Positions 6,719 through 28,794 of a DNA stretch of 40,139 bases are shown piece by piece. The number at the start of each line of letters is the position of its first letter. Within the stretch, counting starts at the first letter, position 1. The DNA is taken from positions 1 to 40,139 of the IMG/VR virus record IMGVR_UViG_3300048113_000098; one strand, given 5' to 3'. Made by a program: the position numbers and the translations under genes. A model generated the notes under the pieces. It had not been told where the DNA came from and did no database searches. It saw nothing but the letters and a program-made list of their open reading frames with translations. Source of the stretch: a virus.

Positions 6719-8755
6719 TTATTTTGATGTTGCTCTAAAGATCCCATCCCAATCCTTTGGGAGATCTTGTGTCTTCATATACTTACAACGTTCAATCCAG
6801 ATGTCATAATAGTCATCCATATGACCTTCAAACTTGCCTTTCAGATCTTTACAAATCTCAATAGCCGAATCAAAATGTTGTGTTCCATAGAAGTTATGCA
6901 TGGTGTTGTGATTGAGCATATCCGCACCATGTTTGTTACGGTCAATATCTAATACCGTATATATCTCTAAACCCACACTCTTACCTTTAACTGCAAGATC
7001 GTCTAGTTTGAGATAGAAGAAATCATCTTCTGTTAGGTTGTAGGTATGGGGTCCTACAATTAAAAGAACCCCATACCCTTTGCATGCGCTTTCTAGTCTT
7101 GCGGCTGTACTGACACTGTCTCCGAGGATATCATAGGAGTGTCTGGATGTAGAACCCATCTCTCCAATATAACCAAGGCCAGTATTAATGCCGGCACCCA
7201 TACCCACTTGCGGTTTACCTTGTTCCATAAGTTTTTCATTAAATTTCTCCACTGCTTTAAGCATGTTTAGTCCTGTCTGAACTGCCGTTTTCGGATGGCT
7301 AGGATCATTAACAGGAGCGTTGTGTATGTGCATAGTTGCGTCACCAATGTATTTGATGATCATTCCACTTGCATCTAACACAGGTTGTGTAATTGCATCC
7401 ATATAATTGTTCATCACTGTTGTCAAACCTTTAACATCATTTCCGAACGATTCACCCAATGGGGTGAAACCTCTAAGATCAGAGAATACAATACTTACTT
7501 CTTTCTTCTGACCTTCTTTAATTAGTTGTGGGTTCTTCTGTAGGATCTCCACAACTTCTGGTGAAGCATATCCACCAAATTGTTTCTTAATAGCTTGTTT
7601 CTCTAAGAATTCTCTAACAAACTTAATACCATATACTTGTAGTGCTATGATTACAAAGACAATGGTAGGGGCTGTTACATCTATTAACATCTTTTCTGTA
7701 GCATACATGTGCATTGAATATGGTATAACTGATCCAATAAGACCTACTGTTGCTATCAGCCCTACTATCATCCATTTGCTTAATGCGATTAATAGAAGTC
7801 CACCAACCACAAGACCAAGTAGTTCTGCCATAGAAGCCCAATCAGGACGTTGAATGTTAGTTCCGTTAAACATTGTTCCTAGAACTGCCGCTTGTACTTC
7901 ACCAGAATATACAGATCCTATGGCTGTAGGCGCTGGGTTGGTTATACCTGCGGCTGTCACGTCCACGATAACAACTGCACCACCAAAGTCTTTAGGAAGA
8001 TCTGTTAAGGATACTCTCTTACTCTTTTGACTCCAATCAATCCATACACGACCTTCACTGTCTGTAGGGATAATACCAAACTGTGGTATTCTCATCTTCT
8101 CTACACCATTGGGTTGCATTTTGATTTGAAAACTAATGTCGCCTGCTAATACACGCAACGTCTCTAGTGCCAAACTAGGATAAAGAGTACCATCCACCAT
8201 AGCAACAGTTGGCATACGTCTAACCACACCATCTATCTCTGGTTCTGTACTGACAATTCCAGCCCCAACAGAGTTATTCTCTAATACAGGGACGTTAGCG
8301 ATTATACCATTGTATGGTAAAATTGTATCCAAATACTCTGGATTGATAATAGCCGCACCTGGATTGATAGGTTCGTTCTTAGTCTTATCGCTAGGACGTG
8401 AGGATAAAACGACAGGATAGTCATATAGGATATTTCCCATATAGGCATCACCACCTAGTCGATCTTCTTCGGGCATCATGATTGTCCAGACCACAAGACC
8501 TGCACCCGAATCATATAAACCTTTTATTATATCACCATAAACGTTTCTTGGAAAGGGGTATTGTCCATACTTGTTCAGAGTTTCTTCATCGATCTCTGCA
8601 ATATAGATGTTATTCTCAACAGGATCTTGATTGACAATTAACTGGTCAAAGTAATTGAGTTTAATACTTTGAATAAAGTTAGATGGATATACGAATGTAT
8701 ATACCAAGACTGCTAGAGTTAAAATTGCCCACCAAGGACTCAATAGTTTCTTCAT
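6719..8755 (-). CDS. CHASE2-domain membrane-bound class III adenylate/guanylate cyclase
   Basis: A 678-residue membrane protein that would make cAMP or cGMP in the cytoplasm. Domains in order: TM1 (about 7-24); an extracytoplasmic CHASE2 sensor (about 30-300, with FDQLI, AEIDEETL, YPFPR and DGVVRRMP); three membrane segments (about 310-375); and a C-terminal class III cyclase catalytic domain (about 416-600). Both metal-binding Asp residues are present: D426 in VFSDLRGFT and D472 in IKYIGDATM. The region GINTG...YDILGDSVSTAARLE follows, with Arg (R553) kept but Ser at position 550, where most class III cyclases have the transition-state Asn. It is the last gene of the curli operon, coupled by TAATG. 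Cyclases are rare in phages. Substrate (ATP or GTP) is undetermined. Confidence 0.9.
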   Translation of the reverse strand: MKKLLSPWWAILTLAVLVYTFVYPSNFIQSIKLNYFDQLIVNQDPVENNIYIAEIDEETLNKYGQYPFPRNVYGDIIKGLYDSGAGLVVWTIMMPEEDRLGGDAYMGNILYDYPVVLSSRPSDKTKNEPINPGAAIINPEYLDTILPYNGIIANVPVLENNSVGAGIVSTEPEIDGVVRRMPTVAMVDGTLYPSLALETLRVLAGDISFQIKMQPNGVEKMRIPQFGIIPTDSEGRVWIDWSQKSKRVSLTDLPKDFGGAVVIVDVTAAGITNPAPTAIGSVYSGEVQAAVLGTMFNGTNIQRPDWASMAELLGLVVGGLLLIALSKWMIVGLIATVGLIGSVIPYSMHMYATEKMLIDVTAPTIVFVIIALQVYGIKFVREFLEKQAIKKQFGGYASPEVVEILQKNPQLIKEGQKKEVSIVFSDLRGFTPLGESFGNDVKGLTTVMNNYMDAITQPVLDASGMIIKYIGDATMHIHNAPVNDPSHPKTAVQTGLNMLKAVEKFNEKLMEQGKPQVGMGAGINTGLGYIGEMGSTSRHSYDILGDSVSTAARLESACKGYGVLLIVGPHTYNLTEDDFFYLKLDDLAVKGKSVGLEIYTVLDIDRNKHGADMLNHNTMHNFYGTQHFDSAIEICKDLKGKFEGHMDDYYDIWIERCKYMKTQDLPKDWDGIFRATSK

Positions 8756-9174
8756 TAGTTACCGTTTTGGTTTATGTTAAGTGTACAACCGTAATCAGCC
8801 CAACAACTTCCATTAACAGTATATGACATACTATTAGTTCCATACTGTGTTGAATTGATATCTGCCATACCCTGACTTCCTGTTGTGATATTTATAGTCA
8901 CCGAATGATTACCAGATCCTGTCTGAGATATGTCAAAGTCATGTGGGGTTCCATCCATATCAAGATATGCGTATTTATACGATCCTGTCTGTGTCAATGC
9001 CACATCATTACCATCACCATCAACGATGATTTCTGCCTCATGGTTCTCTCCATCTTGAGTTACACTTAAAATAAACTCATCACCTATCTGAGTAATATCT
9101 AAGTCATTGGCAAAACTAGCGTTGCTGATAAATGTCAATAGAGTTGTTAGTGCTATCGCCCAACCTGTAGTCAT
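8755..9174 (-). CDS. Curlin-like secreted amyloid subunit (CsgA/CsgB-type repeats)
   Basis: A 139-residue secreted protein. A signal peptide (residues 1-22, ending SNASFA) is followed by imperfect curlin-type repeats: LDITQIGDEFILSVTQDGENHEAEI, VALTQTGSYKYAYLDM, FDISQTGSGNHSVTINI, ADINSTQYGTNSMSYTV and TLNINQNGN. The Q-x-G-x-x-N spacing is that of the CsgA/CsgB amyloid core. Two Cys near the C-terminus (C126 and C132) may form a disulphide. The gene overlaps the FecR gene by 59 nt; a GGGAG before the ATG supports this start. It is short like a nucleator (CsgB is about 150 residues), but major and minor roles cannot be assigned. Export would be through the CsgG pore encoded upstream. Confidence 0.8.
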   Translation of the reverse strand: MTTGWAIALTTLLTFISNASFANDLDITQIGDEFILSVTQDGENHEAEIIVDGDGNDVALTQTGSYKYAYLDMDGTPHDFDISQTGSGNHSVTINITTGSQGMADINSTQYGTNSMSYTVNGSCWADYGCTLNINQNGN

Positions 9175-10252
9175 ATAACTCCCAATCGTTTTGTTGAAGA
9201 TCTATGGTATAACCATATGCCTGATTTAGTCTTAATTGTACGAAGTTCTCTCCGCTATCATTTCTTCTAGAGAACACCCAATTAGGTGTTTCGTTTATTA
9301 GTGATATTCCTGTTAATGGATCGTATCCATATATGTTTGATTCTTGTTTCAATAGTAGTGCATTCTGATCTGCAAGCTCATCACTAAACAATCTCTTTAA
9401 TGCTTCATTCAACTGATCTAGCATGTCATACAATAAGTCTTGAAGGTAATCTATATCCATATCAAGTTCAGTAAGCCAGATGCCTTCTATAGAATCAACC
9501 AAGGCATCATATTCTAATCCATCAAATTGTAAGAAGTCTAGTCCTAAAAAGTCTGCCCTCTCTCTTTGCTCATCCAATAACCTTGTCTGTTCTTCATAGT
9601 ATGGGTTCTTCTTTCTTAGAATTAGAAGTTGATTGATCATACTTTCATCAATGTCCAACAAAAGTGGTGGTGTTGGTTTACTCGTACTAGTAGAAGCTAT
9701 AGTAACTTGGAAAGCTTTATTAAGTATAACAAACCCAGCGTCAGTCTCTACTGTTATCTCTCCTGTATAACAAGATCCAGAAATGTCACAAGACGGAAGT
9801 AGTGTAATCATACTACCACCTGTTTCATCTATAACCATTGCAAAGTCTGTACCACGAACAGCAATCGTTGCTGATGGTGTGCGTATTCTAACACGTTGCC
9901 TACTGTTCTTAGCAATCTGTCCACTGGCATATCGTACAGTGCCAAGACTTGCTTTAAGACCAAGTGATCCTTTTCCAGTATTAGGATCATAGACAAAGTC
10001 ATCAATGATTAGTCGAGAATGTTCTGTTATATCAACTCGTGTATCATCTACAAAATCTATTCTCATTTTAGACTTGGCAGTTATTGCCGTGTCCATCAAT
10101 TCTATAAGAGTACCCTTACTTGTATCAATCGCATCATTACCACGCTCAATAGCCGCACTACCAGATTTTCCTGATAGCTGTACAATCTCTCCTATGTTTG
10201 CATAAGCAGAGGTTGTTATCAAAACAAATAACAAAGCAAGAGACTTAAGCAT
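9116..10252 (-). CDS. Exported FecR-domain protein within the curli operon
   Basis: A 378-residue protein with a signal peptide (residues 1-18, ending TSAYA) and then a FecR domain at about 20-150: NIGEIVQLSGKSG, ITAKSKMRIDFVDDTRVDI, SLGTVRYASGQ and VRIRTPSATIAVRGTDFAM. Classical FecR proteins are inner-membrane sigma regulators. This one has a cleavable-type signal and no later membrane span, so it should be periplasmic or exported. The C-terminal half is acidic and helical (LDEQRERADFLGLDFLQFDG, LYDMLDQLNEALKRLF). FecR domains occur beside surface polymer and adhesin genes in proteobacteria. It lies between the two curlin genes and is coupled to the upstream one by TAATG, so a role in fibre assembly or anchoring is likely. 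Confidence 0.8.
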   Translation of the reverse strand: MLKSLALLFVLITTSAYANIGEIVQLSGKSGSAAIERGNDAIDTSKGTLIELMDTAITAKSKMRIDFVDDTRVDITEHSRLIIDDFVYDPNTGKGSLGLKASLGTVRYASGQIAKNSRQRVRIRTPSATIAVRGTDFAMVIDETGGSMITLLPSCDISGSCYTGEITVETDAGFVILNKAFQVTIASTSTSKPTPPLLLDIDESMINQLLILRKKNPYYEEQTRLLDEQRERADFLGLDFLQFDGLEYDALVDSIEGIWLTELDMDIDYLQDLLYDMLDQLNEALKRLFSDELADQNALLLKQESNIYGYDPLTGISLINETPNWVFSRRNDSGENFVQLRLNQAYGYTIDLQQNDWELYDYRLGDSTNNSIDIYQQR

Positions 10253-10968
10253 TAGTCAGATTGCGTAATATTGATTTGGTGATCATCACCATTAGTATGA
10301 AGGTCTACAATGTTGTCGTATACTCCGCTTTGGTTTACCACAACTGCATGATCACGACCTTTCATGTCTAGTATTATTGTGTGTCCATTTATATCACCAT
10401 CGCCAGCTACATCAATATCTAACGTACTGTTAGTTGATGCTAAACTTGAGTTCTCGTCAATAGTTACAGTTACGATTGCGCTTTTGCCGTTAATGTCTGT
10501 TGTTATCACGTTTCCGCTATCATCAACTGTAAAGTTTACTGTTGCACCTTCAGCATCTGCCGATTGTCCTATGTTAATAGTATAGTCTTGGTTATCGCCA
10601 TCGGCATCAATGTTAAGTGTAACGGTATCACAATCTCCACCTGTGCTACTAGAGCATAGCAAGTCTATTTCGTTTCCACTACCAGTTATATCCCAAGTAC
10701 CTGTGTAAGTAGAACCTAAGATTTGTGCAGTGATTGCGTTTGTGTTACCTGTCTGAGTTATACTGAATGTCATGTCATCAGACGCACCAGAGGATGAACC
10801 AAGAACTACGTCTTGGCTACTAGTACCAATAGTGTTGTTTTGACCATCTTGTACGATGTCTAAGTCAAGTGTATCACCTACTTGTTTTATATAGATATCA
10901 TTAGCGTATAGTGTAAGGGGTGCAAGTAATATTGCACTCATCATAATGAGTTTTCTAAAATGTCTCAT
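10252..10968 (-). CDS. Curlin-like secreted amyloid subunit, larger paralogue
   Basis: A 238-residue protein with a signal peptide (residues 1-22, ending LTLYA) followed by curlin-type repeats: IYIKQVGDTLDLDIVQDGQN, MTFSITQTGNTNAITAQI, WDITGSGNEIDLL, YTINIGQSADAEG and, at the end, AVVVNQSGVYDNIVDLHTNG then HQINITQSD. Central repeats are diverged and Asp-rich (NIDADGDNQ, DIDVAGDGDING), perhaps giving calcium-sensitive or weaker packing. It ends directly on the last repeat, as CsgA does. It lies 10 nt after the CsgG gene and is probably the major subunit by length, although roles are inferred. Confidence 0.8.
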   Translation of the reverse strand: MRHFRKLIMMSAILLAPLTLYANDIYIKQVGDTLDLDIVQDGQNNTIGTSSQDVVLGSSSGASDDMTFSITQTGNTNAITAQILGSTYTGTWDITGSGNEIDLLCSSSTGGDCDTVTLNIDADGDNQDYTINIGQSADAEGATVNFTVDDSGNVITTDINGKSAIVTVTIDENSSLASTNSTLDIDVAGDGDINGHTIILDMKGRDHAVVVNQSGVYDNIVDLHTNGDDHQINITQSD

Positions 10969-10978
10969 TTTCTTTCCT

Positions 10979-11773
10979 TTATCCGCCTGTTTTTGGGTCT
11001 ACCAAAAACGACCAGAATTGCTTCTTTTCTCCTTCATTAATCAATTCAATCACACCAGCCTCTATTGCTGATCTTACTGCATAATTAACTGGCTCGTTCA
11101 CACTAGAGCCAGATTCTGCTTCTACAAGTTTCGTACCCATATCAAAGAATCTGAATACGTCTGCACCACTTTGGTGACTTGCTATGTTCTTTTCTGTAGC
11201 TACACTTAGTAATATTTTACCAGTGCTCACACTTACTAATCTCATAACAATTGTTACAGTATCAACTCTATACTGTTGCTGAACCCCAAGACCAAGATAC
11301 CTTGCTCCCAATCCACCTGTAGCTACACTTGAGTCATAACCAACTATACCACCCTCAAGTATTAATCCAGCGAACACCATAGGCTTGAGTGGTGTGGGTC
11401 CGTTTGCCAAATCCTTTTCATACACTTCACGTGTATTTCTAACTAACTGTCTTTCTCTGACCAAGTTGTCAAGACCAACTCTCTCAACTGTTTCAAACCA
11501 AGTTCCAGATCCAACATCTTGTAATGCCTTGATCACCCAAACTTCTGCACCTTGGGTAACAGCACTACTTAAACTCGAATTCCCAGGCTTCCTTTGTCCA
11601 GTTTTATCCGCAAAAGAATAAACAGCAATGGTCATTTTCTTTCCATCTAACTGTTCATAATCAGAAATCGAATTAGGAGAACTTTGCACCTTGGGAGTTT
11701 CACCAAGAGGATATTGGCTAGGGTCTACACACCCCATAAGAAGTGAAACAATCGTAATCAAAACAAAACGCAT
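10979..11773 (-). CDS. csgG: CsgG-type curli secretion lipoprotein (outer-membrane pore)
   Basis: A 264-residue lipoprotein (E. coli CsgG is 277). The signal peptide ends in the lipobox LLMGC with Cys15 as the lipidated residue. Conserved CsgG segments follow: MTIAVYSFADKTGQRK, SSAVTQGAEVWVIKALQDVG, FETVERVGLDNLVRERQLVRNTRE, ILEGGIVGYDSSVATGGLGARYLGLG, QYRVDTVTIVMRLVSVSTGKIL and FRFFD. CsgG forms a nonameric outer-membrane channel that exports curlins. It overlaps the CsgF gene by one base. No CsgE (gating cap) or CsgC is visible in the window. Confidence 0.9.
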   Translation of the reverse strand: MRFVLITIVSLLMGCVDPSQYPLGETPKVQSSPNSISDYEQLDGKKMTIAVYSFADKTGQRKPGNSSLSSAVTQGAEVWVIKALQDVGSGTWFETVERVGLDNLVRERQLVRNTREVYEKDLANGPTPLKPMVFAGLILEGGIVGYDSSVATGGLGARYLGLGVQQQYRVDTVTIVMRLVSVSTGKILLSVATEKNIASHQSGADVFRFFDMGTKLVEAESGSSVNEPVNYAVRSAIEAGVIELINEGEKKQFWSFLVDPKTGG

Positions 11774-12237
11774 CAGAAGTTAAACTCCCCTGATCCCGGA
11801 ATAGTAATCGTTGTAGTACCATCATCATTTGTTATGACTAGGGTAATAGATCCTGTAGTTGAATCTTTAGACCATTCAATCGTACTTCCCTCAATCTCCG
11901 TAGATCCGCTAGTGGCACAATCATCACTTGTACACTCTGCAAACATAGAATCTACCATCTGTTTACTCAGTGTTGCGTATATTCTACTCTCAAGGTTCTT
12001 AATAAATTTGTTTAATGTAGTATTCTCTAACTCACGCTCAATGCGTTTCGCTTCAGCTTCCATTTCATCTCTTCGATCTTTATTCCTATTGAACACTAAT
12101 TGTTCAGTGGATAATACATGAGAAGAGTATCCTTGCCCATTAAAGGCAGGGTTCTTAAATGTAAACTGTAATTCTGCGTTACTTTGTGTTGGGAGTAACA
12201 CCAAAGCTATTAGGCTTAGGGTCTTCTTTGATATCAT
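11773..12237 (-). CDS. csgF: CsgF-type curli assembly factor
   Basis: A 154-residue exported protein. The signal peptide (MISKKTLSLIALVLLPTQSNA) is followed at once by ELQFTFKNPAFNGQGYSSHVLSTEQLV, the CsgF N-terminus that plugs into the CsgG pore (E. coli form: GTMTFQFRNPNFGGNP). The rest is a helical neck and a beta-rich C-terminus ending in F. The start at MISKK is preferred because it begins the signal peptide; a longer frame upstream would put basic residues before it. It overlaps the membrane-protein gene by 59 nt. CsgF couples secretion to nucleation at the cell surface. Confidence 0.85.
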   Translation of the reverse strand: MISKKTLSLIALVLLPTQSNAELQFTFKNPAFNGQGYSSHVLSTEQLVFNRNKDRRDEMEAEAKRIERELENTTLNKFIKNLESRIYATLSKQMVDSMFAECTSDDCATSGSTEIEGSTIEWSKDSTTGSITLVITNDDGTTTITIPGSGEFNF

Positions 12238-12526
12238 CTTCTTCGCCACTCGTATTAAATTTCTCATTCTTGGTCTGGTTTTGTGCAACCTCTTTGTCCA
12301 TACCTCTATGTTCTAGGACAATAGAAAGCTTTGAGTTGAGTCTGATCATATCATTATCAAGCATACGTACTCTGTCTACCAACTTAATTAGCGTAACCAT
12401 AGTTTCACCAATAACTGGATCTATGGTCTCCGTAACCCACTTCCAAATAAAGTAGATAAAGTAGCCCATTCCAACTGCGGCAACAATAGGGAAGCCGTAG
12501 TCTTTTATGGCTTGGGCTATATCCAT
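12179..12526 (-). CDS. Small membrane protein with C-terminal coiled coil, paralogue of the 12893-13171 protein
   Basis: A 115-residue protein: MDIAQAIKDYGFPIVAAVGMGYFIYFIWKWV is one membrane segment, then ETMVTLIKLVDRVRMLDNDMIRLNSKLSIVLEH is a heptad-like coiled coil, then a charged, disordered tail. The arrangement, the MDI start and the LDNDMIRLNSKLS pattern match the 12893-13171 protein, so the two are likely duplicates. Small phage proteins of this shape are sometimes holins or spanin-like. Its place in front of csgF instead suggests a membrane partner of the secretion system. Function is not established. Confidence 0.7.
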   Translation of the reverse strand: MDIAQAIKDYGFPIVAAVGMGYFIYFIWKWVTETIDPVIGETMVTLIKLVDRVRMLDNDMIRLNSKLSIVLEHRGMDKEVAQNQTKNEKFNTSGEEDDIKEDPKPNSFGVTPNTK

Positions 12527-14038: not shown

Positions 14039-14065
14039 TCTTATTCGTCCTTGTTAATTGTTAAT

Positions 14066-14230
14066 ACGACTTTTCTGTTGCTAGGTAAGTCGCCAACCCC
14101 CTGTGATTATGCCGCTAGGCGTAATCCAGATGGTGCAAAGTTATTGTTTGCATTTAGTGATTTGACCAATCTCGCAGTCACCCGGTAAACTCCACTTCAC
14201 TACAACACCTGTCGATCCTAGTTCTGCCCC
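14066..14230 (-). ncRNA. ssrA: tmRNA coding piece (permuted two-piece tmRNA)
   Basis: The minus strand begins GGGGCAG (14230-14224), followed by AACTAGGATCGACAGG, which matches the tmRNA 5' end and D-loop (E. coli: GGGGCUG...GGAUUCGACGGG). The tag reading frame starts at GCA (14149-14151) and encodes ANNNFAPSGLRLAA, ending at TAA (14107-14109). The ANN start and LAA end are those of degradation tags. A CGACTT/AAGTCG hairpin (14087-14092 with 14067-14072) follows. GGGGCAG pairs with CTGCTCC of the acceptor piece located upstream, including a G3-U70 wobble, the alanine identity element. The 3' end is approximate. Confidence 0.88.
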
Positions 14231-14232
14231 AT

Positions 14233-14461
14233 CATAAATTATCGTTTTCTTTTTAAATAGTTTTGATATTCTTCGTAACTATCTTCACCCTTTTGCCACT
14301 GTTTATAATCACCTTTGGTCTGGGCATCTATTTGCATTTTTTGAACACTAACACCTTTGGTGCGCTTCATAGGTTTACCTTTTTTGATTTCACCACCGTT
14401 TTTTAAAAAGGTGTCAATCAAATCTTTATAATCACTCATAATATAACTCCGATAATTTATG
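14233..14461. repeat. 12-bp perfect inverted repeat framing the tmRNA loop ORF
   Basis: CATAAATTATCG (minus, 14461-14450) and CGATAATTTATG (minus, 14244-14233) are exact reverse complements. The first arm starts within the CCA of the acceptor piece. The second ends two bases before the GGGG of the coding piece. They extend the tmRNA acceptor stem and close a loop containing the ORF at 14239-14439, whose stop codon lies in the second arm. Confidence 0.85.
14239..14439 (-). CDS. Small basic protein encoded inside the tmRNA intervening loop
   Basis: A 66-residue basic, probably helical protein (MSDYKDLIDTFLKNGGEIKKGKPMKRTKG..., ending NYLKRKR). GGAG lies eight bases before the ATG at 14437-14439, so it has its own ribosome binding site. 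It occupies the whole loop between the acceptor piece (ends 14460) and the coding piece (starts 14230), and its TAA is inside the inverted repeat. Translation and tmRNA processing would therefore compete on one transcript. A longer open frame runs upstream through the acceptor RNA but has no ribosome binding site. No family recognised; the charge would suit RNA binding. Confidence 0.7.
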   Translation of the reverse strand: MSDYKDLIDTFLKNGGEIKKGKPMKRTKGVSVQKMQIDAQTKGDYKQWQKGEDSYEEYQNYLKRKR

Positions 14462-14521
14462 GTGGAGCAGTTGGGTACTGCCCCCAAGTCCAGTATGCGT
14501 TCACGTTGCTTCAACGTTTAC
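14460..14521 (-). ncRNA. ssrA: tmRNA acceptor piece (permuted two-piece tmRNA)
   Basis: On the minus strand a T-arm, TTGGG (14487-14483) - GGCAGTA - CCCAA (14475-14471), is followed by the 3' acceptor strand CTGCTCC (14470-14464), discriminator A and CCA (14462-14460). Stem of five and loop of seven are tRNA-like; the loop is not the usual TTC type. A CGTTG-AAG-CAACG hairpin lies at 14504-14516. The acceptor strand pairs 7/7 (with G-U at position 3-70) with GGGGCAG 230 nt downstream. The 3' half preceding the 5' half is the alphaproteobacterial permuted arrangement. The 5' end is set by the promoter and is approximate. Confidence 0.87.
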
Positions 14522-14528
14522 AGTTTAT

Positions 14529-14557
14529 ATAGTAACATAAGGAGCTAAAAGTGTAAA
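14529..14557 (-). promoter_or_regulatory. Sigma-70-type promoter of the tmRNA gene
   Basis: TTTACA (14552-14557), 17 bp, TACTAT (14529-14534) on the minus strand. The predicted start near 14521-14522 falls just before the acceptor piece, which supports an early tmRNA transcript. Confidence 0.75.
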
Positions 14558-22256: not shown

Positions 22257-23205
22257 TCGGTACTAGGACGTAATGTATCGTAAGTACGATTCCCAACGAA
22301 GCACCAAGCCCAACCATCATCTTCAAGAAGTCTTTACCTATTAATGGAAACACTGTCTTGATTTTTCCCTTACCTGTATATGTAGCCATTGCTAACTCAC
22401 GTCCACATAAGAGACCCACGAACACCCATGTTGTTGACATAGGAATATCATTCAACTCTTTAAAGAAGAATAGGATTGCCCAATAGACTGCATCGATAAT
22501 AGTAGCAGAACGTACATAACGTGTGTTGTGCTTCTCAATAACAATCTGTTGGATCTTACCACCACCTTCACGTAGCATGAATGCCAAACCACCAACAAAG
22601 ACTACACTAACCATAATCATCAATGAAATGTCAAGTTGTCTTGGAAGGAACACTGCGATATTAGCTACATCATGAGATAACCAAGTAAACCATAAGAAAC
22701 CTGTTGTGATCCATTGACCAATTCTCCAATATGCTTTATGTTCTGGTTTAACATCTTTAGTTTCATCTAGAATACGACTTACAATCATCCAGATTGCATA
22801 AGCGGCAACTGCGGCAACAGCATAACCCATCATGGATTTCATTAGCATTTTCTCTAACACGAATGTAGATGCAAATGCCGATAGAACTAAGAACGATGTA
22901 GATACTGGAACACCTACTCTGGTCAATAGCAAAAGAACTGCTGGTGCTAGTGCATGATACCATTGTACTTCTTGAAATGGAATCTTATTAAGTCTTCCAT
23001 AACTAATATCACCACCATTCATATACCAACCATACCAAAGAGTATAGAGTAGAACACCAGAAGCGGCTAACCACATAGTCTTCCAACTAAATCTTTCATT
23101 ATTACTTGCTATCCAAGTACCCAAAGTTTGTACAGAATCATTTGCTATTACTGCGTAAGCGGCGAATATAAATCCTACCACCATCCATATCGTTAGTGCG
23201 TCCAT
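22246..23205 (-). CDS. PiT-family phosphate permease-like protein
   Basis: A 319-residue membrane protein with about nine hydrophobic spans. It has two copies of the PiT inverted repeat: AND (21-23) in VIANDSVQTLGTW and HDVAN (178-182), together with PVSTS (100-104) and PMSTT (255-259), the latter in the GLLCGRE context. These match the GANDVAN and PVSTTH signatures of inorganic phosphate transporters. Length is shorter than PitA (about 500). It sits among sugar-phosphate genes with no promoter in the immediate gap. The likely role is raising phosphate uptake during phage DNA synthesis; the exact ion is unproven. Confidence 0.85.
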   Translation of the reverse strand: MDALTIWMVVGFIFAAYAVIANDSVQTLGTWIASNNERFSWKTMWLAASGVLLYTLWYGWYMNGGDISYGRLNKIPFQEVQWYHALAPAVLLLLTRVGVPVSTSFLVLSAFASTFVLEKMLMKSMMGYAVAAVAAYAIWMIVSRILDETKDVKPEHKAYWRIGQWITTGFLWFTWLSHDVANIAVFLPRQLDISLMIMVSVVFVGGLAFMLREGGGKIQQIVIEKHNTRYVRSATIIDAVYWAILFFFKELNDIPMSTTWVFVGLLCGRELAMATYTGKGKIKTVFPLIGKDFLKMMVGLGASLGIVLTIHYVLVPNGY

Positions 23206-27826: not shown

Positions 27827-27997
27827 TTATAGATCTTTACTATCCGTTAGCATGAGATACTTAGCTTCTTCGTAATAGCCCATTCTATGCAATTCGGATG
27901 CGGCACGAGCCTTACCTACTGATAGAAAGAAGCCGTTAAAGCCACTAAATAACCCACTCAATGGGGCATTGACGAAGTTTAGAATTGCTGTAGACAT
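27827..27997 (-). CDS. Small hypothetical protein, coupled to DUF1127 gene
   Basis: A 56-residue frame (MSTAILNFVNAPLSGLFSGFNGFFLSVG..., ending TDSKDL). Its ATG overlaps the preceding stop (TAATG) and a strong terminator follows its stop. The first half is Phe/Gly-rich and amphipathic; ARAASELHRMGYYEEAKYLM is a helix of the type seen in DUF1127 and related small proteins. Function unknown. Confidence 0.6.
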   Translation of the reverse strand: MSTAILNFVNAPLSGLFSGFNGFFLSVGKARAASELHRMGYYEEAKYLMLTDSKDL

Positions 27998-28284
27998 TAT
28001 ACTGATCCTTTTAAGTTTGCGTTTACTTCAACTGCTTCGACAAATTCGTCACTGAAGTTGATACGGTTCTTTAAATGATCAATGTGTCCATGAGCCATAC
28101 CGTAAATATCACCTCTACACAAACCAATATCTTGTAGGTCTGCATTACTTAGTTTGTTCAACTCATTAATAGTTTTACGCACTAGAGATTTATGTTTATG
28201 ATGTGCTCTCAGAGATCTGAAAGTTTCTAAAATTGTTTCGATTGCCCGAATCGAAAAGCTATGGGCTGTTAGTATGTGTTGCAT
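27997..28284 (-). CDS. DUF1127 (YjiS-like) small protein
   Basis: A 95-residue protein. SLVRKTINELNKLSNADLQDIGLCRGDIYGMAHG is the DUF1127 pattern (R-x-x-L-x-x-L-x-D-x-x-L-x-D-I-G-L-x-R-x-D-I). DUF1127 proteins are common in Alphaproteobacteria and have been linked to RNA turnover and phosphate metabolism. The start at MQHILTAH is chosen over an upstream in-frame ATG for its AGAGG. It overlaps the Hsp20 gene end. A host-like gene on a phage; the role is unknown. Confidence 0.8.
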   Translation of the reverse strand: MQHILTAHSFSIRAIETILETFRSLRAHHKHKSLVRKTINELNKLSNADLQDIGLCRGDIYGMAHGHIDHLKNRINFSDEFVEAVEVNANLKGSV

Positions 28285-28714
28285 TAGGTTTATCCTCTGA
28301 ACCAATATTGATTTTACGAGGACGCTGATCTTCTGGGATGATAAACTTCAATTGAATTGCTAGAATACCGTCTTGAATATCGGCTCCGTGCACTTGCACG
28401 TGTTCTGATAGCCTAAAGGTGCGTTTGAACTTCTTAGTGGAAATACCACGGTGAACGTATTCACGACCTTTTGTTTTGTGTTCTCCAGTTACAGTTAATG
28501 TCCGTTCATGCAACTCAATGTCAATTCCCTCTTTACTGAAACCTGCGACTGCTAACTCAATAAGATAGTCACTCTCAGATGTCTTGAGGATATTGTGAGG
28601 TGGGTAATGATCATGGGCATGTTTGGTAACATGATCCAATTCTTTAAAAAGGTGATCAAAGCCTACGAATGCGGCGGATGGAAATAGCCCTGTGGCTGTA
28701 GTTTTGCTTATCAT
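28259..28714 (-). CDS. Hsp20/alpha-crystallin small heat shock protein
   Basis: A 151-residue chaperone. The alpha-crystallin domain spans about 45-140: DYLIELAVAGFSKEGIDIELHERTLTVTGEHK, REYVHRGISTKKFKRTFRL and DGILAIQLKF (G-x-L-x-I-x-L). The C-terminal tail is polar. It holds unfolded proteins for refolding. AGGAG six bases before the ATG at 28712-28714 sets the start; a longer in-frame start lacks this. Small heat shock proteins are frequent in marine T4-like phages. A CTAAATAA near 28772-28779 could be a degenerate late promoter. Confidence 0.92.
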   Translation of the reverse strand: MISKTTATGLFPSAAFVGFDHLFKELDHVTKHAHDHYPPHNILKTSESDYLIELAVAGFSKEGIDIELHERTLTVTGEHKTKGREYVHRGISTKKFKRTFRLSEHVQVHGADIQDGILAIQLKFIIPEDQRPRKINIGSEDKPNATHTNSP

Positions 28715-28794
28715 AATAGTTTCTCCTGTAAAGCAAGAAGGGGTTAGTAGCCAGATCATCTGCACTACGCCCTTATTTAGTCATTTGTTAATTT

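Follow-up and report, generated by a model that had tools for sequence, protein, structure and literature searches.

The tmRNA locus of this marine virus of bacteria raises the question of what a protein gene is doing in the loop that separates the two halves of a permuted tmRNA gene, and how one transcript could serve both. The window, by which we mean the whole 40,139-nt stretch of DNA that was analyzed (IMG/VR virus record IMGVR_UViG_3300048113_000098, positions 1 to 40,139), carries such a locus on its minus strand. An earlier note made from its letters had described it as a phage-borne permuted tmRNA of the alphaproteobacterial type with a protein gene in its loop, a description that Rfam matches, related viral loci and the short loops of cellular counterparts support. 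We consider it probable that the intervening loop of this and related phage tmRNAs is a swappable gene slot, one transcript being both mRNA and tmRNA precursor. This reading draws on the anatomy and covariation of the RNA, the ORF and the selection acting on it, the independent exchange of gene and tmRNA, and the relatives of loop genes that lie outside loops, all read from sequence; from these we infer how transcription, translation, processing, the recombination route and a benefit may fit together.

Anatomy of the permuted tmRNA gene

Covariance searches of the minus strand place a permuted tmRNA of the alphaproteobacterial type at 14554-14063. Both RF04321 (87 bits against a cut-off of 47, E 1.7e-15) and RF01849 (86.5 bits against one of 50, E 3e-22) match above threshold across the entire tmRNA gene, which is the check that the earlier note had put forward for its reading, and ARAGORN calls the same gene with the tag ANNNFAPSGLRLAA. 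The acceptor piece, which is the 5' half of the gene (14460-14525, minus strand, delimited by the two Rfam alignments and ARAGORN with an approximate 5' end), runs in the order GGAC, T-arm, CTGCTCC (14470-14464) and ACCA (14463-14460). Between its CCA and the GGGGCAG of the second piece lies an intervening sequence (IVS) of 229 nt (14231-14459, minus strand), which is an insertion in the RF04321 and RF01849 alignments alike and is expected to be absent from the mature tmRNA. The coding piece, the 3' half of the gene (14063-14230, minus strand; the RF01849 match reaches 14063), is made up of GGGGCAG (14230-14224), a tRNA-like D region, the tag frame and a conserved 3' end, ACCTAGCAACAGAA. The tag frame with its stop was located by ARAGORN at 14107-14151 (minus strand), and the tag has a hydrophobic -AA end followed by the stop. 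The acceptor piece precedes the coding piece, CCA is encoded, and the acceptor strands form 7/7 pairs with G3-U70 among them, all of which the earlier note had read correctly from the letters. A short non-coding IVS, typical of the type though not strictly defining, is not what the window has: its IVS of 229 nt holds an ORF, against a cellular median of 28 nt among the matches listed.

A candidate promoter, TTTACA-17-TACTAT with TG ahead of the second hexamer, lies at 14529-14557 on the minus strand and was recognized by consensus match only; the region contains four promoter-like sites against a shuffle mean of 2.1. Elsewhere in the window, a second RF01849 match at 22727-22894 (minus strand) scores 16.3 bits, far under the cut-off of 50, and is probably due to chance.

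The protein gene in the loop

The IVS holds an ORF of 66 codons, from ATG to TAA (14239-14439, minus strand), with SD, start and stop in frame. It was identified by ORF calling and by its pN/pS, and encodes a basic protein of 7.9 kDa (16 K+R against 10 D+E, pI 9.6). Its Shine-Dalgarno (SD) sequence GGAG (14447-14450, minus strand) abuts the helix described below, its first G being the last base of the 5' arm. With GGAG at 14450-14447 and ATG at 14439, the claim that the ORF has a ribosome binding site of its own is confirmed, and the ORF also stays in the loop, with both tmRNA pieces present, in four further viral contigs (L001-L004), a comparison that the earlier note had put forward as a check. 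The ORFs of L001 and L002 are identical to that of the window, and the proteins of L003 and L004 are 95% identical to it, with 9 or 10 synonymous and 3 non-synonymous changes over 65 codons. The resulting pN/pS of 0.07 (Fisher p = 1.1e-5 on approximate site counts), an estimate from two protein variants, that of the window, L001 and L002 and that of L003 and L004, indicates that the ORF is under purifying selection.

Searches of viral contigs and of tmRNA neighbourhoods gave no copy of this family outside a tmRNA loop, and a wider search with a two-sequence alignment of the family returned the same four contigs and no others; the history of its cassette is therefore drawn from L221 and from other loop families. 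Compared with PHROGs, the window protein gave nothing below E 0.19, and its best Pfam match had an E of 0.049, far under the cut-off of that entry; both were treated as noise. Five loop proteins searched by tblastn against 50,697 phage records (E up to 10 or up to 1) had no match, in a search where the low-complexity filter of BLAST may have masked hydrophobic loop proteins. An AlphaFold2 model built on two sequences was unusable (pLDDT 59, pTM 0.24).

Loop ORFs in viruses and cells

A scan by the acceptor piece alone, in which ORFs were ignored, yielded 107 unique viral and 102 unique cellular IVSs among the matches listed. Identical IVSs had been merged, which left 72 unique ones in a further set selected for an SD (GGAG and ATG near CCA), and loci with no recognizable coding piece within 900 nt had been dropped (6 of 120 viral loci, 12 of 118 cellular ones and 10 of 112 chosen for an SD, among the matches listed). 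Among the matches listed, the viral IVSs have a median of 77 nt and 38 of 107 reach at least 100 nt, against a cellular median of 28 nt and 1 of 102; an SD-led ORF of at least 25 codons is present in 15 of 107 viral and 0 of 102 cellular IVSs (viral against cellular: Mann-Whitney p = 6e-13, Fisher p = 4e-5). In Pelagibacteraceae, the IVS measures 7-12 nt in nine of ten loci picked among the matches listed, the tenth having no recognizable coding piece, in keeping with the premise of the earlier note that the loop is normally short. The majority of viral loops in the ORF-blind scan (92 of 107 among the matches listed) are without such an ORF. In the 45 unique viral IVSs that measure 90 nt or more, SD-led ORFs of at least 25 codons number 15 in sense and 1 in antisense among the matches listed, and shuffles of the same IVSs gave a mean of 2.2 and a maximum of 7 over 50 sets.

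When the viral loci were pooled, an SD-led ORF of at least 18 codons was found in 95 of 197 unique loci among the matches listed, in 21 clusters. This pool is partly selected, as loci were chosen for SD/ATG sites or via loop proteins, and the ORF rates and start offsets of the SD-selected set are not frequencies. Three of the 21 clusters are doubtful: cluster 4 is a short frame that precedes the cluster-1 gene within one and the same loop, and clusters 18 and 20 are isolated and oddly positioned. Cluster 0 is over-merged via a tmRNA-encoded C-terminus, with a KYLSG motif common to several members. Where several pairs could be compared, median pN/pS in the other loop families is 0.19-0.52, with single pairs up to 0.80, pairs inside one family not being independent. 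The ORF starts 11-23 nt past CCA in 76 of 95 loci among the matches listed, partly through selection of the loci; in the ORF-blind scan, 13 of the 15 longest loop ORFs start in that interval and two at 41 and 77 nt (again among the matches listed). In 53 of 95 loci the stop lies in the final 17 nt of the IVS; in another 35 it lies inside the coding piece, most commonly as the TAG of GAANTAGGATCGAC at offset +13 (19 loci, among the matches listed).

A small hydrophobic protein with the motif W-S-I-C-A-D was observed in the loop of 17 unique loci (L176, L186, L189, L250 and similar) and outside the loop in L020 and L117; its loop often has, ahead of it, another short SD-led frame that contains D/E/S-rich stretches. 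The loops of the isolates DSS3_MAL1, DSS3P8, RcXuper and MD18 (98, 106, 109 and 98 nt) and the 410-nt loop of Phosso (L385) hold no SD-led ORF of 18 codons or more, and long loops thus exist for other reasons too. By eye, the loops of Phosso and of L386, L387 and L388 (106, 109 and 98 nt), all phage isolates of alphaproteobacteria, look GC-rich and structured, which is perhaps another use of the same loop. Phage DSS3_MAL1 also carries a GOLLD RNA (RF02032, 160.5 bits; L007 767-1230) on the upstream side of the permuted tmRNA, from which its end is ~60-110 nt away according to the model used.

The closing helix

Inverted-repeat analysis and RNA folding show that the ORF is enclosed by a helix prolonging the acceptor stem. 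Its 5' arm, CATAAATTATCG (14450-14461, minus strand), and its 3' arm, CGATAATTTATG (14233-14244, minus strand), which includes the stop TAA at 14241-14239, pair perfectly over 12 bp, so that the inverted repeat described in the earlier note is found at 14461-14450 / 14244-14233; it lies within a longer pairing of 21-nt arms with 90% Watson-Crick complementarity. Opposite the leader UGAU, the helix also takes in the discriminator A and the CCA, as A-U, a C.A mismatch, C-G and A-U. When the two pieces are folded together with the IVS the helix forms with z = -3.7, an equal fold being obtained in 1 of 100 shuffles.

Helix runs of at least 10 pairs occur in 61 of 83 viral and 4 of 43 cellular IVSs among the matches listed, and in 1.7% of viral shuffles, counting only IVSs of at least 30 nt. 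Because short loops limit helix length, loops of 30-75 nt were compared as a length-matched control, and here too such runs are found in 16 of 28 viral and 3 of 42 cellular loops among the matches listed. Within the viral loops of this kind, they are present in 12 of 15 with an ORF of at least 25 codons and in 49 of 68 without (among the matches listed). Since the helix is nearly as frequent in viral loops that lack such an ORF, it did not arise for the gene; it is a property of phage loops and not of the gene. The four bases of the leader read UGAU at 64 of the 107 viral loci and at 20 of the 102 cellular ones among the matches listed.

Separate exchange of gene and tmRNA

Nearly identical tmRNAs can enclose unrelated genes. 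L001 and L221 share 70/75 positions of the acceptor piece and 165/170 of the coding piece, and their loop genes, of 66 and 29 codons, are unrelated; among the differences between these tmRNAs are compensatory changes at one pair of the acceptor stem and at one of the T-stem. Similarly, L152 and L223 are identical at 74/75 and 166/170 positions and hold unrelated genes of 65 and 36 codons. In L005, the cultured Methylophilales phage Melnitz, and L150 (75/75 and 167/170), a loop ORF in an IVS of 142 nt stands against an IVS of 76 nt with no SD-led ORF. The converse is seen in L001 and L003, where the IVS is identical at 216/229 positions, the acceptor piece at 43/75 and the coding piece at 117/137. 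As judged from these alignments, gene and tmRNA are doubly dissociated and exchange independently of each other.

Five loop clusters have relatives outside loops, near tmRNAs (E < 1e-10), at distances that are approximate because the acceptor piece was taken as 75 nt. A homologue of cluster 19 (loop of L064) lies ~26-27 nt upstream of the tmRNA in Melnitz, where it is gene 85, and in its relatives, one of cluster 9 (L065) ~31 nt upstream in L082 and L092, and one of cluster 11 ~21 nt upstream in L017. Relatives of cluster 3 are located immediately upstream in L107 and, at 0.2-2.7 kb on the downstream side, in L055, L174, L102 and others, and those of cluster 1 0.2-0.4 kb upstream in L020 and L117. 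The IVSs of L020, L117, L055, L102, L107, L082, L092 and L017 contain no ORF; L174, L196 and L217, among others, duplicate other loci and are not to be read as ORF-less IVSs.

Genomic surroundings

The replication genes of the window are presumably T4-like, and the ORFs at 28259-28765 and 27997-28305 (minus strand) resemble those of a small heat-shock protein and a DUF1127-type protein. A curli-type set at 6719-12288 (minus strand) comprises CsgF and CsgG, both of which match Pfam, a curlin-repeat protein (8755-9174) and, by eye, a second curlin-like ORF (10252-10968). A FecR-domain protein and a CHASE2-adenylate/guanylate cyclase complete this row of neighbouring genes, the cyclase being surprising in a phage. 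Curli fibre genes are lacking in Melnitz, as far as the accessible text of its description goes (PMC9004378).

Alternative explanations

Had the insertion killed the tmRNA gene, the two pieces would be relics beside a live protein gene. Part of the pre-tag region is gone in L003 and L004, both of which ARAGORN misses, and L003 scores under the RF01849 cut-off, so tmRNA function there may be reduced; ARAGORN also gives no call for the Phosso tmRNA and misses about half of the ORF-bearing loci (46 of 95 called, among the matches listed), L221 being called in one run and missed in another. Such decay is nevertheless highly improbable, as all 197 unique viral loci with a measurable IVS among the matches listed show 7/7 acceptor-stem and 5/5 T-stem pairs, counted with the acceptor stem as the best of 7 registers and with search patterns that fixed part of each stem, the main one leaving three base pairs free in each. 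This pairing is kept through 10 acceptor-stem and 22 T-stem sequence types, the stem changes between L001 and L221 compensate each other, and an AA end is found in 45 of the 46 tags called in ORF-bearing loci among the matches listed (the exception is L068). An untranslated ORF, in a spacer RNA where a frame stays open by accident of length, is the least probable reading of all. Loops free of SD-led ORFs do reach similar length (L025, 223 nt; L024, 277 nt; Phosso, 410 nt), so length alone is tolerated, but codon selection, the SD, the excess of sense ORFs over antisense ORFs and shuffles, and the homologues that other loop families have outside loops all argue against it. The protein might instead act on trans-translation by binding tmRNA, SmpB or the ribosome, and be encoded in the loop for joint production with the RNA, which would suit its co-location with the tmRNA and the small, basic nature of the window protein. 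This we regard as quite improbable: from one phage to another the loop genes seem unrelated, and some have long hydrophobic stretches, unrelated genes sit inside near-identical tmRNAs, and neither the sole Pfam match, far under its cut-off, nor the unusable AlphaFold model points to such a role. Binding of the RNA by the protein, which the earlier note had allowed for, gained no support from the tests made.

A timed switch, in which the helix has the transcript act as mRNA before it becomes tmRNA, deserves more weight, although we hold it to be doubtful. Ribosomes on the nascent RNA would keep the 3' arm open, and after they had cleared it the helix would close, hide the ribosome-binding site and present the tRNA-like domain for processing. 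For 20 loci with the SD no more than 5 nt from CCA, accessibility of the SD is indeed predicted to drop from 0.50, with the 3' arm not yet made, to 0.06 in the full precursor. The stops, which sit in the final 17 nt of the IVS in 53 of 95 loci and in the coding piece in 35 (among the matches listed), would suit such a switch. Pairing between leader and RCCA is, moreover, reported in the accessible part of PMC9433436 to slow E. coli RNase P when at least two pairs form. Against this, no fall in accessibility is predicted in the class of 56 loci that includes the window (0.40 to 0.45; window 0.57 to 0.58), these averages excluding loci with the SD further in and loci near a contig end. Locking of the SD by the helix was rejected as a general mechanism, being predicted in the 20 loci and not in the class of 56; as the helix seals the SD in one class and not in that of the window, translational locking is not claimed for the window. 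The same portion of PMC9433436 gives A(-2)U(-1) as the optimal context for E. coli RNase P, and the leader retains these bases, so the helix need not block cutting; with leader pairing slowing the enzyme, the C.A mismatch at -2 is what would be expected of a long helix that can still be cleaved. A switch serving the gene also fits poorly with a helix that is nearly as common in viral loops without an ORF of at least 25 codons (49/68) as in those with one (12/15, among the matches listed).

A probable route from one transcript to protein and tmRNA

With the loop as a gene slot, the reading that we prefer, a single transcript, probably started from the promoter-like site at 14557-14529, would comprise the acceptor piece, the small gene and the tag-coding piece. 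Its loop would be closed by a long helix made up of the 7-bp acceptor stem, the ACCA:UGAU step with its one C.A mismatch and the paired stretch beyond. Ribosomes would enter the loop gene at its own SD, whether the precursor is still being made or is complete, or else on the excised loop, and host RNase P and 3' processing enzymes would then free the two tmRNA halves, which would remain paired and function in trans-translation. Because it is discarded from the mature RNA, the loop would tolerate unrelated genes of up to ~80 codons, and the conserved tmRNA halves flanking it may let recombination exchange the cassette.

The earlier note had suggested that the protein may be made only from unprocessed precursor. 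The window has SD, start and stop within the IVS, which could therefore still be translated once excised, and by this layout the protein could be made before or after processing. The suggestion is thus not favoured here, and is a better fit for the 35 of 95 loci, among the matches listed, whose ORFs stop in the coding piece. In those loci, the stop lies in the mature coding piece, and cutting by RNase P would leave a stop-less mRNA, the tmRNA's own substrate. This opens a self-limiting circuit as an unlikely elaboration of the gene slot, in which the RNase P cut makes the loop message stop-less and the matured tmRNA tags the loop protein and ends its production. A milder form would apply to the window: with its stop 8 nt ahead of the cut, a terminating ribosome would cover the RNase P site and delay maturation.

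Significance and comparison with known systems

Genomes usually keep their RNA genes separate from their protein genes. Marine phages seem instead to lodge small, exchangeable genes in a loop that is discarded from the RNA, so that a single transcript may yield both a protein and a ribosome-rescue RNA. This bears on the persistence of permuted tmRNAs in phages and, with Melnitz available in culture, makes the sharing of one RNA by translation and tRNA-type processing testable. It also points to overlooked small phage genes, of which the loop ORF of Melnitz, with no CDS annotated at its place in the record, is an example, and the nested layout is a warning for annotation, ARAGORN calling only 46 of the 95 ORF-bearing loci among the matches listed.

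Other elements have been described within tmRNA genes. The accessible part of PMC11915505 reports one permuted tmRNA whose IVS holds a tRNA-Ala gene and one with a repetitive element; these likewise place another element within the IVS, but they are single cases and not protein genes. In group I intron tmRNAs, a homing endonuclease gene is present in 36 of 883 unique sequences according to the same part of PMC11915505, and there, as is expected of the window, a protein gene nested in the tmRNA gene is absent from the mature RNA. Their removal is by self-splicing in the T-loop, and the window gene sits in the permutation loop; the T-arm of the window is uninterrupted, its Rfam search gave no intron family match, and the loop proteins searched in PHROGs and Pfam gave no endonuclease match. 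A predicted sORF of 23 aa in S. meliloti that ends in the tag, its start codon being immaterial (PMC10117765, accessible text), differs in kind from the loop gene. In the accessible portions of PMC9004378, PMC11915505, PMC10117765, PMC3037559 and PMC3978253, protein genes are nowhere reported from the IVS of a permuted tmRNA, and an earlier description of what looks here like a plug-in gene slot within an RNA gene was not found.

Also among the closest known systems are the alphaproteobacterial two-piece tmRNAs (RF01849/RF04321), with which the window shares the order of the pieces, the acceptor and T-stems, the tag frame and the 3' end of the coding piece. Their cellular members differ by a short IVS (median 28 nt of 102, among the matches listed) against 229 nt and a gene in the window. 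Melnitz was published with a permuted tmRNA, in an account whose accessible text describes riboswitch control and no loop gene (PMC9004378). The glutamine riboswitch motif RF01739 does lie just downstream of its coding piece (L005 6356-6404), as published, and the Rfam search of the window gave no RF01739 match over threshold. The ssrA of Melnitz nevertheless resembles that of the window in being a phage-borne permuted tmRNA of the alphaproteobacterial type, whose IVS holds an SD-led ORF and is closed by a helix, and it differs in carrying another loop gene, one that extends into the coding piece by 42 nt.
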